DNA of 64,000 nucleotides from Chryseobacterium sp. ERMR1:04. GTDB lineage: Bacteria; Bacteroidota; Bacteroidia; Flavobacteriales; Weeksellaceae. The notes under the pieces are model-generated. The model saw only the letters and a program-made list of their open reading frames with translations. It ran no database searches and was not told the origin of the DNA. Positions 47,421 to 57,719 of this stretch are shown here, piece after piece. The stretch covers positions 1,116,001 through 1,180,000 of the forward strand of contig NZ_LIRF01000008.1 of NCBI RefSeq assembly GCF_001297705.1, given 5' to 3'. Positions within the stretch are counted from its first letter, which is position 1. Every line of letters begins with the position of its first letter. The translations under genes were made by a program, and so were the position numbers.

Positions 47421-48482
47421 TTAAGCTCTCTCCAACAAAACCAAACTATGATCACTTCCTCCCAAATGATTATACAAAAGAATGTTTTTAATACTTTCTT
47501 TTTTCACTTCATTAATCATCATCACTTCCGGAATCTGCTGATCTTTCAGAATATGACAAGCCATAAATGTTGAGAAACCACTTGCTGTATTGAATTCTCC
47601 ACTTAGATGCTTATAATATAATAACGCTGAATTGGGAAATAAATCCATTGCTTTGGTATAATAGGCGTCCGATTTAGAATCTCCGCTAAAACCTAAAATC
47701 ACAGCGTCAATTTCTTCAAAGGTAAGATGGTTTTTTGTTAGTAAGTCTCTGATAAACTTTTGAATTTCATCTTGTTCTAATCTATTGTTGATTTTAATAT
47801 CTCTAAGCTGAGCGTAAGAACTTTCTGCCTTTTCTTTTCCTAAAACAAAAAAGCTTGAACCTTCTCCCCAAATAACGCCTTCTGTTGTTGAGTGTAAATA
47901 ATCAACAGGAAGATTTTCTTCTTTTTTAATGGTATTGTTTAATTTATACAATTCCATTGTTCTGTCGGTCTGCTCATCTGTTGAACCCACCAAAACATGA
48001 TCAGCCTCACCATCATTAATTTGAAGTTTGGCGTCTAACATGGAGAATTCTAAAGAAGAAGAAGTATTCACATAGGTGAAATTGTAAGCGTGGCATTGTA
48101 ATGCTAAAGCTATTTGCCCGGCAACCGTATTGTGAGTGGATTGGATAAAATAAGTTGGAGTCAGAAACTCTTCATTATTATCAATTACATTTTTTAAAAA
48201 CTTTTCAGAATCCTGGGAACATCCCATTCCTGTTCCGACAATAATCGCATCAGGATTTTCAATTCCGGCTTCTTTTAAAGCGTATTTTGAGGCTACAGAA
48301 CTCATTTTTACAGTTTTAGACATTCTTCTGCTCATTGCAGGGGGAATGAATTCTTTGTAATTAGGTTCAATAGCTTTTACGATCTGAATTGAATTTTCAG
48401 GCGTAAGATTTTGGATGAAATTTTCATTTAAAGTGTCCTGAACCGAGATGCAGGCTGCACTGTTGATATACACTGCGCTCAT
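47421..48482 (-). CDS. Ketosynthase-like chain-length-factor protein (inactive KS partner)
   Basis: The start at ATG 48482 overlaps the ketosynthase stop (ATGA), which fixes the choice and indicates coupling. The thiolase fold is recognisable, but the nucleophile region reads 'YVNTSSSLEFSM' with Ser142 where active synthases have Cys, and the first His motif (HGTAT) is lost ('GFSGDSKSD'). This matches chain-length-factor-like partners of type II systems, so it should pair with the upstream ketosynthase and set chain length. The partner gene carries a frameshift in this sequence. Confidence 0.82.
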   Translation of the reverse strand: MSAVYINSAACISVQDTLNENFIQNLTPENSIQIVKAIEPNYKEFIPPAMSRRMSKTVKMSSVASKYALKEAGIENPDAIIVGTGMGCSQDSEKFLKNVIDNNEEFLTPTYFIQSTHNTVAGQIALALQCHAYNFTYVNTSSSLEFSMLDAKLQINDGEADHVLVGSTDEQTDRTMELYKLNNTIKKEENLPVDYLHSTTEGVIWGEGSSFFVLGKEKAESSYAQLRDIKINNRLEQDEIQKFIRDLLTKNHLTFEEIDAVILGFSGDSKSDAYYTKAMDLFPNSALLYYKHLSGEFNTASGFSTFMACHILKDQQIPEVMMINEVKKESIKNILLYNHLGGSDHSLVLLERA

Positions 48483-49665
48483 GATTTTGAGAAAATTAAG
48501 GTTGAACAATTTCCTCCGAACCCAAATGAGTTGGAAAGTACATGATCGATATTCTTCTCTTTCAATTCGGTAACGGGAGTTAGATCAAATTCTTCCATTT
48601 TCGTTTTAAAATTCAAATTGGGGAAAATGATATTATTTTGAATGGCCAACAATGAATAGATGGCTTCAATTCCCGCCGCTGCAGCTAAAGTATGACCTGT
48701 AAACGCTTTTGTAGAACTGAATTCCGGAACCTGATTTTCGCCAAAAAGTCTGATCATCGCAATTCCTTCTGAAAGATCATTATTGGGAGTTGCTGTTCCG
48801 TGAGCGTTGATATAATCGATATTTTCTTTCTGTAAACCTGACACTTTCAATGCTTTTTCCATGGCTAAATAAGCGCCTTGTCCGTTTTCCGAAGAAGCGG
48901 TTTGATGGTGGGCATCGTTGGCATTTCCATAGCCTGAAAGATAGCCGAGTACTTTTTGACAAGTTCATCAGATTCCAACACCAAAAAGGCTGCTGCTTCT
49001 CCTAGATTTAATCCTTTTCTGTCATTGTCGAAAGGCGTATTATAAGCATCAGTAAGAATCATTAGGGTACTGAATCCATTCAAAGTAAATTTTGAAAGAG
49101 AATCTGTTCCACCAACAATCACGCGGTCTAAGACTCCATTTTTAATAAGCTTTGCGCCAATCATAATCGCGTTGGCAGCAGATGAGCAAGCCGTACTGAT
49201 GGTAGAAACCATGCCTTTAAGGCCTAAATAATCTGCAATGGCTAATGATGAATTTCCTGCATCATGAGAGTCTATATATTTTTGCTTTTCAGGAAAGTCT
49301 TCGTAGGAGTAGAAATACTTTTCGGTGATATCCATTCCGCCAACGCTTGTTGAAGAAATTAACCCCGTTTTGTAGCCGTTGATATCTGATATACCGGCAC
49401 TTTCTACCGCTTCTTTTGCAGCAACCATACCTAATAAAGCGGTTCTTGTTACATTATTATCTTCATTAAGCTGAAGTTTTTGTACCAATTCTTCATTAGA
49501 TAATTTGATCTCGCCTGTTTTAATATTTCCGGTGTGACGGGTTTCAAACAACTGAATATCTGAAATTCCGTGTTTTCCGGAAGTGAGCGAAATGAAATTT
49601 TCTTCCACATTGTTACCGATGGAAGAAATGATGCCCATTCCTGTTATGGCAATTTTTTGACTCAT
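48479..49665 (-). pseudogene. Beta-ketoacyl-ACP synthase, split by a one-base A-tract frameshift
   Basis: Frame 1 (49665 to about 48957) holds 'STISTACSSAANA' with the catalytic Cys and ends 'LNLGEAAAFLVLESDELVKK' before leaving frame and stopping at 48865. Frame 2 resumes 'VLGYLSGYGNANDAHHQTA' and continues through 'NAHGTATPNND' and 'STKAFTGHTLAAAAG' to 48479. The switch falls in a five-base A run (48952-48956 as T on the plus strand); one more A restores a 395-residue synthase with an intact Cys-His-His triad. A sequencing error, a real mutation or recoding are all possible. Confidence 0.85.
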
Positions 49666-50657: not shown

Positions 50658-51812
50658 TTAACATTTTTCTAAAACAATTGCTGCATTACACCCACCAAAA
50701 CCTGAAGCCGTTTTCAAAATATATTTGATTTCCGCAGGTTGGTTTTCTTTAATAATATGTAAAGGCTGGGAAACTCCCATTTCTTCAAAGTTTTTAGATG
50801 AAATTAAGGTATTATGAAGAGCACTTTCCATAGAAATAATACTTTCCAGTAAACCTGATGCTCCTAAACAGTGTCCGTAAAAACCTTTCATGCTGTTGAG
50901 AGGAACATTCTGTAATTCCATTCTGTTGAAAGCGATGGCTTCCATTTCGTCGTTGTATATTGTTGCTGTTCCGTGAGCAGATATAAAATTGATTTGTTCT
51001 GTTGAAACTTGTGCCTCTGTCATTGCATTTTTGATGCTTGCATACAATCCGTCTCCCGTTCTTGAGGGTCCGGAAATGTGATTCGCATCGTTAATAGCTG
51101 AATCTCCGGATATTTTAAAACTAAAACTTTCGTTTGAGATTGCTTCGTCACTTCGTTCCTCGCAATGACCTGTAATAAAAGCCGCCGCTGTAGCTTCACC
51201 AATATTGATTCCGCTGCGGTTTTTGTCATAAGGTTTACAAGGTTCGCTTCCTATGGCCTGAAAAGAATTGAATCCTGAAATCACAAATTCTGAGATCTCA
51301 TCTCCGGCAACGACAAACGCATCTTTATATCTTCCTGCCTGAATCATATTTTTAGCAACAGCAATCGCCATTACCCCTGAAACGCAGGCATTGGAAACTA
51401 CAATGGGTTTGGTTTTAAATCCGAAAAAGTCTGCGATTTTTTGTGCTAAACTTGAAAGATAAGCACCTTCCGGTACAGTCACTTTATTTTTTAATAAGCT
51501 TATATTTCCTTTTGTTGTTGATAAAATAAAAGCCGTTTCTTCTGTAATGTTATGTCTTTCTACCAAAGGTTTTAAGCTTAACAAAAACATTTTTTCCAGT
51601 CTTGTGAAATCCTGATTGTCGAAGTTCTTATTGAATTCTTCTTCCAACTTTTCAGAATCGATGATAGAAGCATAAAAAGCTTCCTGATTTTCGATCACTT
51701 TATGTTTGGCGACCCCTGATTTTCCTTGTAATAAAGCATTCCAATTGGATGCAACATCAAATCCTAAAGGAGTGACGCAGTTGTAATCTGTGATGTAAAC
51801 TTCTTTTCTCAT
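50658..51812 (-). CDS. Beta-ketoacyl-ACP synthase with repeat-derived insert
   Basis: 384 residues with a complete triad: Cys143 ('[13 protein letters not shown]'), His280 ('[11 protein letters not shown]') and His314 ('[11 protein letters not shown]'). Residues about 215-226 read '[12 protein letters not shown]', the well-known translation of a CATTGCGAGGAACGAAG-type interspersed repeat, in the surface loop after '[10 protein letters not shown]'. The insert keeps frame, so the protein is probably still active. It overlaps the thioesterase gene by 4 bases and precedes the half ketosynthase. Confidence 0.88.
51136..51169 (-). repeat. CATTGCGAGGAACGAAG repeat inside the ketosynthase gene
   Basis: On the minus strand the 34 bases run GTCATTGCGAGGAACGAAG followed by TGACGAAGCAATCTC; ends TTGC/GCAA and centre are partly self-complementary. 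Only this copy is seen in the window. Confidence 0.8.
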
Positions 51813-54238: not shown

Positions 54239-55234
54239 TTAAATTGCTTTTCTCAGTTTTTTATAGAAAGCTTCTTCCAGATCAGCAATATGAAGCATTG
54301 ATTTTGAAAGCTCCTGATAGATATTGCTTTTTGAATTTCTGTTTTTGTAAACTCTTGCAATATCCACGGCAAAATCTCTCCAAAGATCACCGATTGCGGT
54401 AATTTCTTTAGACAGTTCTTTTAGTTCATCATTCTTAAGAATTACGGAAGCTTCCTGTAAAAAAGCTCCATAAATAAATCTGAAACCGCCACCGCCTGTT
54501 CCGATTTCCTCTTGCATTCTGATCAATTGGCCCAAATAATGATTGGTCACTTTTGTACCTTTTTTATCTGCCCATTTCGGGATGCTTTTTGCGACCCATC
54601 TCATGGCTTTTACGCCGATAAGTGGAACGGGAGCCAACATGTTTTTACAAGTATCTTTAATTCCTTTTTTTATGGCTTCTTCTATATTTACATTCTCAGG
54701 AATATAAGTAGGGTAGTACATATGGCCTTTGGGAGGAAGTGCTCCTTTGGCATATCTTACTTTTTCCAATTCGGCTTCAGAAAGGGAAGTGGTGTAATCC
54801 ATCACGGGATCACTGATCAAAAATCTTCCGTCTTCTTTTCCGTAAACGACCAAATTGTGGGCGTTGAAATGGAATTTATATTCTTCAGGAAAATACGTAA
54901 GGTTAAAAACCCCAACCTGTAAACCTGTTGGGACATTATTTTCTAAGTTTTTCTCTAAAGCTAATTGAGCGTCTTTAGGATTCGAGAATTTTTCTCTTTT
55001 AATTTTAATTCCCAGTCTTTTTGCGGCTTTGCTGAAAATAGCTCCCGGCATTGGCCTGTAGCTGAAGCCTGGGGCGAAATTTACTTTTAAAAAAGGTAAA
55101 TACACGAAAAATAACCCTGAACCAATTCCGAAGATCATCGGTTCGCTGAGTTTGAGCCCTTTGTTTATGAGTAAATTAGAGGCAACACCGTTTTCGCAAT
55201 GCGCAGTTTGATGGTGTTCAAAATTAAGTTTCAT
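54239..55234 (-). CDS. BtrH N-terminal domain protein
   Basis: 331 residues. The N-terminus 'HHQTAHCENGVASNLLINKGLKLSEPMIFGIGSGLFF' fits the BtrH_N family; Cys13 and the later His in 'FNAHNLVVYGKEDGRFLISDP' are the expected papain-like pair. In butirosin synthesis BtrH moves an acyl group from an ACP to an amine. Here it may transfer or release an ACP-bound chain, an inference. The C-terminal 130 residues are helical ('HYLGQLIRMQEEIG...LRKAI'). It follows a palindromic repeat. Confidence 0.8.
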   Translation of the reverse strand: MKLNFEHHQTAHCENGVASNLLINKGLKLSEPMIFGIGSGLFFVYLPFLKVNFAPGFSYRPMPGAIFSKAAKRLGIKIKREKFSNPKDAQLALEKNLENNVPTGLQVGVFNLTYFPEEYKFHFNAHNLVVYGKEDGRFLISDPVMDYTTSLSEAELEKVRYAKGALPPKGHMYYPTYIPENVNIEEAIKKGIKDTCKNMLAPVPLIGVKAMRWVAKSIPKWADKKGTKVTNHYLGQLIRMQEEIGTGGGGFRFIYGAFLQEASVILKNDELKELSKEITAIGDLWRDFAVDIARVYKNRNSKSNIYQELSKSMLHIADLEEAFYKKLRKAI

Positions 55235-55289: not shown

Positions 55290-55694
55290 TTATTTACCGT
55301 TGAAATTTTTTAATTCATCCACTGAAATCCCGAATGCATCGGCATATTTTTTCAGTACGGATTCGCTTAGTGTCTTAAATACTTTCGGTTTTGCATGTCT
55401 TTTTACTCTCCATTGCCACATTCCGGCGTAGGAAGCAAGAACCTGTAAATCCATTTTGTTCAGTTCCATGAAATAAACAATTGGACTCGCTATATTATTG
55501 GCAACATCTTGTCTGGCTTCTTCTATTCTTTCATTAATTAAGGCTAAAGATTCATCCAAAGCGGCTTTCTTAACGTCCCAACCAATGCTGTTTGCCGTTG
55601 TATAATTATTGTTTTCATCAGTCACGTATAACACTTCGGTCATATTAGCTGACTTCAAGTTGCTTTCGTCCTGAGGAAGGTCTTGTTTTTTCAT
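55290..55694 (-). CDS. Conserved cluster protein, helical, unknown function
   Basis: 134 residues. The N-terminus is acidic and unstructured; residues about 38-70 form a helix ('VKKAALDESLALINERIEEARQDVANN'), followed by 'SPIVYFMELNKMDLQVLASYAGMWQWRVKRHAKPKVFKTLSESVLKKYADAFGIS'. No family motif known to me. It lies 5 bases after the hotdog gene and before a palindromic repeat, clearly part of the operon. Confidence 0.65.
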   Translation of the reverse strand: MKKQDLPQDESNLKSANMTEVLYVTDENNNYTTANSIGWDVKKAALDESLALINERIEEARQDVANNIASPIVYFMELNKMDLQVLASYAGMWQWRVKRHAKPKVFKTLSESVLKKYADAFGISVDELKNFNGK

Positions 55695-56148: not shown

Positions 56149-56580
56149 TTATTTTACAACAGTTTTCATTTGAGAGTTGGCAATCTCAACATCATTCAGT
56201 TTCGTAATAATATTGACAAGCGTAACGCCCATTACTTCATTAAGAATAGTAACTTCAGACTTCAGATGATCTCCTACTTTTGGCAATGCCTCAGCTTCAA
56301 AAGACTTGATTGCACCAATATATCCTGTGGGAGCATCTTTTCCCAACAGATAGTATTTGTAGCCGGTGTGTAAAGCCACACTTTGTGCCTGATGCTCGAT
56401 CATTCCTGAAGCCTGAAAAATTCCGTTCTGAACAAAAATATTGTCTTCTTTTATTTCAAATCCTGAGATTAGGTGACTTTCAGAATATTCAGCAATCTCA
56501 TTCACCATTACAAAAGGAGATCTTTGTGGAATTAAGCTTTCAACGAAATTTTGATCTGATGTTGGTAGTCTGTTTTCCAT
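56149..56580 (-). CDS. ApeP-like hotdog protein, Gln variant partner
   Basis: Start at ATG 56580 overlaps the DarB stop (TAATG); an earlier ATG at 56604 is inside darB. The blocks 'LIPQRSPFVMVNEI' and 'DNIFVQNGIFQASGMIEHQAQS' align with the next gene's 'FLPHRHPMLMADYI' and 'DNIFVHNNEFVEAGLIENLAQT'; both His become Gln while the Glu is kept. A catalytically weakened subunit of a heterodimer is the likely reading. Confidence 0.76.
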   Translation of the reverse strand: MENRLPTSDQNFVESLIPQRSPFVMVNEIAEYSESHLISGFEIKEDNIFVQNGIFQASGMIEHQAQSVALHTGYKYYLLGKDAPTGYIGAIKSFEAEALPKVGDHLKSEVTILNEVMGVTLVNIITKLNDVEIANSQMKTVVK

Positions 56581-57719
56581 TAGCAAACCGTTAGTAATGA
56601 ACAAGAATATGCAAATCTTCCACTTTCAGGAACACAAAGAAGTATTTTTTCTCCTTTTTTCAATTTCCCTGAGTTCATCAACTCTTCTAAAGCTACGAAT
56701 ATAGAGCCGGCACCAATATTTCCGATATCAGAAAGATTATAATACCATTTTTCCCAAGGGAAATCTAATCCTACTTTGTCAAATTCCTCTTTAAGGCCTT
56801 CTTTAAAATACCCTGAAGAGATATGCGCCAACACGTGATCAATAGAATCCGGATCTAAACTGTGTTTGTCAAAAGATGATCTTAAACTTTCTGCACCTTT
56901 TACCAAGATGTATTTGTCAAGAATTTTAGTGTCTTGTTTTATCGCAAAAATAGACTGCTTCAACCATTCGTCTGAAGGGTAATCTGCCCAAGATTTTAAA
57001 CTTCCGTCTTCTTGTTTCTCACAACCTGCATACATACAAGCTTCGATTTCGTGAGCGTAAGAATAGAAATCAATGAAATCAATCTTCAAAGAGATTTCGT
57101 TTTCTCTTGGTTTATTTTGTAATAGGAAAGCACCCGCTCCGTCAGAAAGCATCCATCTAAGGAATTCTCTTTTGAAGGCAATAATTGGTCTTTCTTCCAA
57201 TAAAATTAAATTTACTGCTTCGTGGTTGAATTTATCAGCGGTCATCCATGCAGACATTCTTTCAGAACCTGCACAAACTGCTGTTTCCTGAACTCCTGCT
57301 TTAATAGATAGGAATCCGTAATTCAAAGCGTTCATCCCCGAATTACAAAGGCCTGTTGCGGTGTTAATCTCAATAGATTTCCCGATGTTTAATTCCCCAT
57401 GCACCATAGAAGCGTGTGAAGGCTGAATCTGGTCTGGAGAAGTGGTTCCCACAGACAGCAATTTCATATCTGATTTTTTGAAATTTTCATCAAAAAGTCC
57501 TTCAATAGCTTTTGCGGTAAGCTGTGCATTGGTATGCGTTGGGTTTCCTTTTTTGTCTAAAGCGTAATATCTTGTGGTGATTTTATTGTTTCTTAAAATA
57601 ATAGATTTCGCTTTAGATCTCGCCTCATTTATATAGCCAAGATACGTTTCCATTTCATCATTAGAAACAGGCTCATTGGGTAAGTATTTTGATGCTTTTG
57701 TTATAAATACGTCGTACAT
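56580..57719 (-). CDS. darB: DarB, dialkylresorcinol-forming ketosynthase (KAS III-type)
   Basis: 379-residue KAS III-like enzyme that starts dialkylresorcinol synthesis by condensing beta-ketoacyl chains. The nucleophile is Cys125 ('NTATGLCNSGMNAL'), the His lies in 'VLAHISSGYFKEG' and the Asn in 'YYNLSDIGNIGAGSIF'. It ends in TAATG with the next gene and follows darA by one base, the canonical darB-darA pair of dialkylresorcinol and flexirubin clusters. Confidence 0.9.
   Translation of the reverse strand: MYDVFITKASKYLPNEPVSNDEMETYLGYINEARSKAKSIILRNNKITTRYYALDKKGNPTHTNAQLTAKAIEGLFDENFKKSDMKLLSVGTTSPDQIQPSHASMVHGELNIGKSIEINTATGLCNSGMNALNYGFLSIKAGVQETAVCAGSERMSAWMTADKFNHEAVNLILLEERPIIAFKREFLRWMLSDGAGAFLLQNKPRENEISLKIDFIDFYSYAHEIEACMYAGCEKQEDGSLKSWADYPSDEWLKQSIFAIKQDTKILDKYILVKGAESLRSSFDKHSLDPDSIDHVLAHISSGYFKEGLKEEFDKVGLDFPWEKWYYNLSDIGNIGAGSIFVALEELMNSGKLKKGEKILLCVPESGRFAYSCSLLTVC

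Follow-up and report, generated by a model that had tools for sequence, protein, structure and literature searches.

A ketosynthase loop of the flexirubin-type cluster as a probable recurrent site of in-frame capture and loss of REP-like repeats in Chryseobacterium

A 64,000-nucleotide stretch of the Chryseobacterium sp. ERMR1:04 genome (hereafter the window, meaning the whole stretch that was analysed) contains a ketosynthase (KS) gene in which one loop, loop 1, is probably a recurrent site of in-frame capture and loss of REP-like repeats that are dispersed in Chryseobacterium genomes. Judging from comparison of the orthologous sequences, repeats have been gained or lost in loop 1 about a dozen times or more across the relatives. 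That REPs and palindromic elements occur inside proteins is already known; what goes beyond the sequence-only reading, in which one mobile or self-spreading repeat appeared to have entered a biosynthetic gene without stopping it, is that capture is recurrent, with several repeat types at one place and a second loop of the same KS affected, and that other species share the insert.

The KS gave matches to Pfam PF00109 and PF02801 above the cut-off, and every match to NCBIfam beta-ketoacyl-ACP synthase models was under the cut-off of the model. From these domains and the nearby darB, darG and darH genes (Table 1), the gene was assigned to a flexirubin-type (Dar) cluster. Cys143, His280 and His314, which we take to be the catalytic triad, showed no variation in two alignments containing 10 and 35 orthologues, in support of the earlier statement that the catalytic residues are left intact. 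As both the frame and these three catalytic-type residues survive, the enzyme is predicted to be able to go on working; the loop would be exposed and the KS still active. A structure prediction based on 35 close orthologues had a mean pLDDT of 45.9 and a pTM of 0.48; being poor, it was set aside, and the surface position of the loops was therefore based on the sequence and on knowledge of the family, both loops presumably belonging to the face with which FabF-like enzymes dock the acyl carrier. The paralogous second KS of the cluster (window positions 48479-49665, minus strand) was found to be divided by a frame change into two overlapping ORFs, both halves of which lie within one ORF in the 76 other loci compared; this is either a lesion or an assembly error here.

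Table 1. Coordinates of the KS gene, its loops and residues, and neighbouring cluster genes in the window
Feature	Position	Strand	Basis or remark
Ketosynthase (KS) gene, repeat-bearing	50658..51812	-	384 aa, open frame; ORF list
Captured type A repeat, in frame, 12-residue peptide, loop 1 of KS	about 51135..51170	-	Sequence, genomic copies, 160 orthologues
Loop 2 of KS, native here (NKNFDNQD), residues 61-68	51609..51632	-	Orthologue comparison
Cys143 codon, intact	51384..51386	-	Invariant in KS alignments
His280 codon, intact	50973..50975	-	Invariant in KS alignments
His314 codon, intact	50871..50873	-	Invariant in KS alignments
darH, BtrH-related acyltransferase	54239..55234	-	NCBIfam NF053550 above cut-off
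darG, flexirubin biosynthesis	55290..55694	-	NCBIfam NF053545 above cut-off
darB, dialkylresorcinol condensing enzyme	56580..57719	-	NCBIfam NF053539 above cut-off

The whole type A element in the KS is GGTCATTGCGAGGAACGAAGTGACGAAGCAATCTCA. Its 17-mer CATTGCGAGGAACGAAG, read in the KS frame as HCEER plus two bases of the following codon, was located at a single place in the window (51151-51167, minus strand, 0 mismatches), with 0.03 chance matches expected in the window when 3 mismatches are allowed, and the presence of an in-frame repeat inside an open KS was thereby borne out. The sequence-only reading had proposed that genomic copies be counted: in the 5.53 Mb genome, with the KS copy included, CATTGCGAGGAACGAAG was found exactly at 5 places and with up to 2 mismatches at 29, and the reversed control of CATTGCGAGGAACGAAG gave 0 matches at up to 2 mismatches in the same genome. 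The 32-base type A element with up to 3 mismatches was also found at 29 own-genome places, and the KS insert is identical to the genomic type A pattern across 32 bases. Among the 173 genomes of the genus, the 32-base type A pattern with up to 2 mismatches was present in 113 (control, 0) and type B, also with up to 2 mismatches, in 105 (control, 0), KS copies being included in both counts; the repeat is thus dispersed while the KS frame is kept, as had been supposed. In the loci L002, L003 and L005, another repeat (ACTTCGACAGGCTCAGCACAGGCTA) adjoins or sits within type A copies.

Outside the KS, the repeats were mainly extragenic. When 30 of the 32 repeat places in the own genome were read, the KS copy alone lay within a long ORF, and five further places were inside stop-to-stop frames of 94-125 aa. 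In a genus sample of 60 loci (one place per genome, by non-random choice), 58 copies were re-found by pattern, and two of these were located within ORFs of 120 aa or longer with 25 aa to either side, the ORF being the KS in both cases. In 80 loci of up to 21 kb together with the window, 47 repeat matches fell in conserved ORFs, 36 of them in the KS; among the remaining 11, five were in conserved ABC ATPase codons and were judged to be chance matches, and six were in the first approximately 30 codons of stop-to-stop frames and are probably upstream of the start codon. The exclusivity of the KS as host gene is accordingly a result from samples, not from a genome-wide census.

The KS was present in 171 of the 173 genomes, and loop 1 was read in 160 of these 171 (G165, outside those 160, was later seen to be native). 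The loop was short and native in 109 orthologues and carried a repeat at the same place in the other 51, namely type A in 28, type B (TGTCATTCTGACGAAGGAAGAATCTCA, translated CHSDEGRIS) in 21, type C in one (G022) and a composite type D in one (G028). Loops were typed by motif rules, the first of which missed six loops, and a loop of 17 residues in G063 was classed as native. The earlier reading had proposed an alignment to confirm a lineage-specific insert and had held that the same residues in all relatives would speak for an ancestral native loop. Such a shared loop was not found, and the insert is lineage-specific in that 109 of 160 orthologues are native, but it is not private to the species, since 51 of 160 have a repeat. 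Decayed A and B loops were also observed (for example, G113 and G085). Native loops were exactly 15 residues long in 103 of the 105 parsed; the repeat inserts occupy the place of native codons and are therefore not clean insertions. Of two strains bearing the name C. jejuense, one (L297) has type B in this loop and the other (L321) the native form. In L049, L101, L072 and L193, a longer nested repeat (GGCTAAACGCCGAATCTTCGATTTCTGA) was seen in one or other of the two KS loops.

Loop 2, the second captured loop, contained the type S repeat core (RFFDSAQNDN) in 36 of 160 orthologues (the anchor of the loop being absent in 3 of the 160) versus 0 of 480 codon-shuffled genes, and long nested repeat forms were also found there. 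For the presence or absence of the repeat in loop 2, 24 changes were required on a tree that still included the loop 2 columns. In 15 independent pairs, loops 1 and 2 changed in the same direction in 3.8 and in opposite directions in 0.6 on average, a co-occurrence that was non-significant (median p, 0.25).

On a KS tree constructed without loop 1, 26 presence/absence changes of loop 1 were counted, of which starred branches force 15 or more. To allow for possible recombination of the KS, a second tree was constructed from 17 flanking ORFs without the KS (78 of 81 rows, 3949 columns; two of the 17 ORFs are halves of one split gene), and at least 14 changes were obtained, at least 12 of them forced by starred branches. 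Both trees were quick searches with a single support measure, and their counts combine gain and loss. A gain is favoured where G126 (native) stands beside G027 and G103 (type A), with the similar native loop of G123 outside, and the changes as a whole would include repeated new insertions from a mobile pool. Some changes may be losses, since the native-looking loops of G161, G075, G046 and G134 have a TCACAAAAC or TCAAAC end like the end of the repeat.

Synonymous agreement was compared in pairs of carriers with a whole-gene synonymous identity of 0.5-0.65, ungapped comparison of the insert codons being possible for 26 of the 28 inserts of type A and for 19 of the 21 of type B. Insert codons agreed at 0.945 for type A (1922 comparisons) and 0.947 for type B (602 comparisons), and codons 9-20 from the insert at 0.533 and 0.553, respectively. 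In the nearest 1-8 codons, type A pairs agreed at 0.761 versus 0.699 in native pairs of similar distance. The mean flank identity of the carriers was 0.877 to the nearest native-loop relative versus 0.804 to distant type A carriers; individually, no distant carrier matched the flank better than the native relative did in 13 of 28 cases, and some distant carrier did so in 15 of 28. An insert that is uniform while distant codons diverge, within flanks that follow the lineage, seems to have a history of its own or to be under a constraint of its own, and both a neutral ancestral loop and transfer of KS alleles are disfavoured by the near-identity of the inserts in lineage-following flanks.

In the process favoured here, an element of approximately 27-36 bases, free of stop codons in one frame and encoding a charged peptide there (the type A 12-mer or CHSDEGRIS), would replace approximately 3 to 5 native codons; the insert may later be lost, decayed or replaced, so that the site would toggle between species. 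Loop 1 is presumably singled out by a local target preference or by selection. Counting against fresh insertion from the local pool are the forms of the paired bases in the repeat and the case of G104. Own-genome type A copies mostly have the G/C form, which gives the same peptide as the A/T form, and the exact A/T form was confined to the KS copy among the 29 own-genome places. In the KS, all 26 alignable type A inserts had the A/T form, as did that of G155 by a separate comparison; the insert of G113 is the decayed one. Such uniformity in a form scarce in the own genome would not be predicted by fresh insertion from the local pool. In G104, a type A carrier, no second genomic match was found within 3 mismatches. 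Also weighing against the favoured process are the replacement of native codons by the inserts, the native-looking loops that end like the repeat, and the 15 of 28 carriers with a flank better matched by some distant carrier.

The same uniform A/T form speaks for a rather unlikely account in which one ancestral insertion was lost many times and was kept uniform by selection on DNA, RNA or peptide as an exapted loop; it would also accommodate the Q variant of the insert (EEQ), which recurs in separate clades, and some native loops that resemble deletion remnants. Such an account has to meet several observations that point the other way. Of the 14 loops read in the nearby genus g9, 13 were native and one (G208) was type A, and KS matches were slightly shorter in more distant genera, where whole matches and not loops were compared. 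Furthermore, the losses must keep restoring the same spacing found in nearly all parsed native loops, and the occurrence of types B, C and D at this site requires replacement as well. The coordinates of G208 are equal to those of the Epilithonimonas arachidiradicis locus.

Horizontal transfer of the loop as a short patch from the KS gene of one species to that of another, which we regard as improbable and as somewhat less likely than a single ancestral insertion, would likewise produce near-identical inserts with the A/T form in common across deep splits, and the slightly raised agreement of the nearest 1-8 codons and the 15 of 28 carriers whose flank is best matched by a distant carrier are in its favour. 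The best among many distant carriers is, however, expected to do well by chance, mean flank identity goes by the carrier's own lineage, synonymous identity is at background from codon 9 outwards, and a tract comprising the insert and very few codons would be unusual for homologous recombination. The reading that the loop is native and variable, its likeness to the repeat being due to chance or low complexity, could draw on the length of the loop 1 site, which is also unlike that of other KS (alignment to chain 4ls5_A), but it was judged refuted and is retained at a negligible probability: the identity to the genomic repeat is exact over 32 bases, the type A core was found in 27 of 160 real KS genes versus 0 of 480 codon-shuffled ones, and several distinct repeat families occur at the one place. 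Recurrent capture and loss in loop 1, which appears to tolerate such inserts, is thus the reading preferred.

As to the enzyme that moves the repeats, type A copies in several genomes were found as inverted pairs approximately 115-135 or 355-370 bases apart, and four wide pairs (L356, L364, L370 and L371) enclose a small GIY-YIG ORF. The inverted match between the two flanks exceeded the best of 60 shuffles for 13 of 16 small GIY-YIG ORFs from 10 genomes of the genus, three of these loci (L352, L362 and L373) having a flank match near the threshold, versus 0 of 10 with one tie for a comparison set of uvrC-like frames of about 600 aa, taken as UvrC. The arms of the 13 passing loci were type A in six (two of them with the full repeat on one side only), B/S-like in one and of another TGTC type in five, and those of L362 were of none of these. 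The shuffles preserve base composition only, and the link between GIY-YIG ORFs and repeats is therefore an association, not proof. In a phylum sample of 30 loci, seven reached a contig end and were left out, and 12 of the 23 usable loci passed, with arms that were not all of the TGTC type. Inverted REP-like repeats were observed flanking small GIY-YIG ORFs at L356, L364, L369, L370, L371 and L373, and the small GIY-YIG ORF of L362 (G022) is bordered on both sides by repeated tRNA-end-like stretches (AATCGGGACG...GGTTCGAATCC).

A RAYT (Y1_Tnp) enzyme was considered as mobiliser and rejected: of nine Y1_Tnp matches in the own genome, eight were above the cut-off, and at none of these eight loci was a repeat of type A, B or S nearer than about 350 bases, a bare TGTCATNC motif standing beside one of them. 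From the flank comparison, a small GIY-YIG nuclease appears to be the best candidate for a trans-acting enzyme that copies the repeats. No small GIY-YIG ORF was found in the own genome, and its copies would accordingly have to be relics or to depend on a different enzyme. A free-standing GIY-YIG homing endonuclease with end repeats could cut its target and be copied in as a cassette; the present case differs in that solo repeats outnumber the small GIY-YIG ORFs in several genomes, and the cleavage role is putative. It is tentatively suggested, as a possibility we rate well below an even chance, that the dedicated mobilisers so far missing for CGTC/TGTC-type REPs in Bacteroidota are small GIY-YIG nucleases, in which case the repeats would be the ends of GIY-YIG cassettes, solo repeats would be non-autonomous derivatives of these, and the KS loop would be a preferred target that is repeatedly rewritten.

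Among known systems, the CGTC-tagged REPs are described, in the accessible text of a 2013 survey, as having a CGTC or often TGTC tag, a stem of 8-9 bp starting with AT and a loop of 4-5 bases, and as mostly intergenic with some copies within genes and present in Bacteroidetes (PMC3733652). The 29 tags counted at own-genome places besides the KS were TGTC (9), CGTC (7; together 16 of 29), GGTC (3), AGTC (2) and others (8), and the tag of the KS copy is GGTC. By eye, the only outer pairing was ATTGC/GCAAT (5 bp), with a short inner stem in addition; when folded as single-strand DNA, the half-elements of types A, B and S were no better than shuffles and type C had a z of -3.46. As the tags fit in 16 of 29 and the stems loosely, the repeats are called "REP-like" and are not firmly filed. 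Like CGTC-tagged REPs, they are interspersed, mainly extragenic and not found flanking tyrosine transposase genes (8 Y1_Tnp loci). The same text reports different REPs at about the same site in recB of two Xanthomonas species (PMC3733652); unlike CGTC-tagged REPs, the repeats here have struck the loop of one metabolic gene repeatedly and genus-wide, with several repeat types. A further difference is that the repeats here flank small GIY-YIG ORFs, whereas CGTC REPs, as far as that text goes, apparently lack a dedicated transposase and are not associated with transposase genes (PMC3733652).

RPE-4 and RPE-6 of Rickettsia are counted among the CGTC-tagged REPs in the accessible text of that survey (PMC3733652), and Rickettsia palindromic elements are described, in the accessible part of a review, as about 150 bp long and located in frame inside unrelated proteins (PMC10969869). 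The KS repeat resembles the latter in being translated in frame inside a protein, and differs in its length of 27-36 bases and in that the KS is the only confirmed host gene in the samples. GTAG REPs with RAYT are, according to the portion of the source available, short, often in inverted pairs and proposed to be moved in trans (PMC2817692); the present repeats are also short, interspersed and in inverted pairs, but are without a GTAG tag (0 among the 29 own-genome tags counted) and without a flanking RAYT gene (8 Y1_Tnp loci). In the literature, judged mostly by titles and abstract openings, nothing was found on repeats in flexirubin KS, on GIY-YIG genes flanked by REPs, or on these repeat or peptide strings, nor any report of REPs in Chryseobacterium or Flavobacteria that covers this case.

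The genus thus constitutes a natural experiment in which one loop, several repeat types, and native and captured states occur in close relatives. With it, two ideas can be put to the test: that selfish DNA is a source of protein loops fit for use, and that one loop can serve as a lasting target. The link with GIY-YIG ORFs also suggests a candidate enzyme for a superfamily of REPs described without a dedicated transposase in the available text of the 2013 survey (PMC3733652). If the GIY-YIG reading is true, a loop in a protein of pigment synthesis would be rewritten again and again by this machinery.
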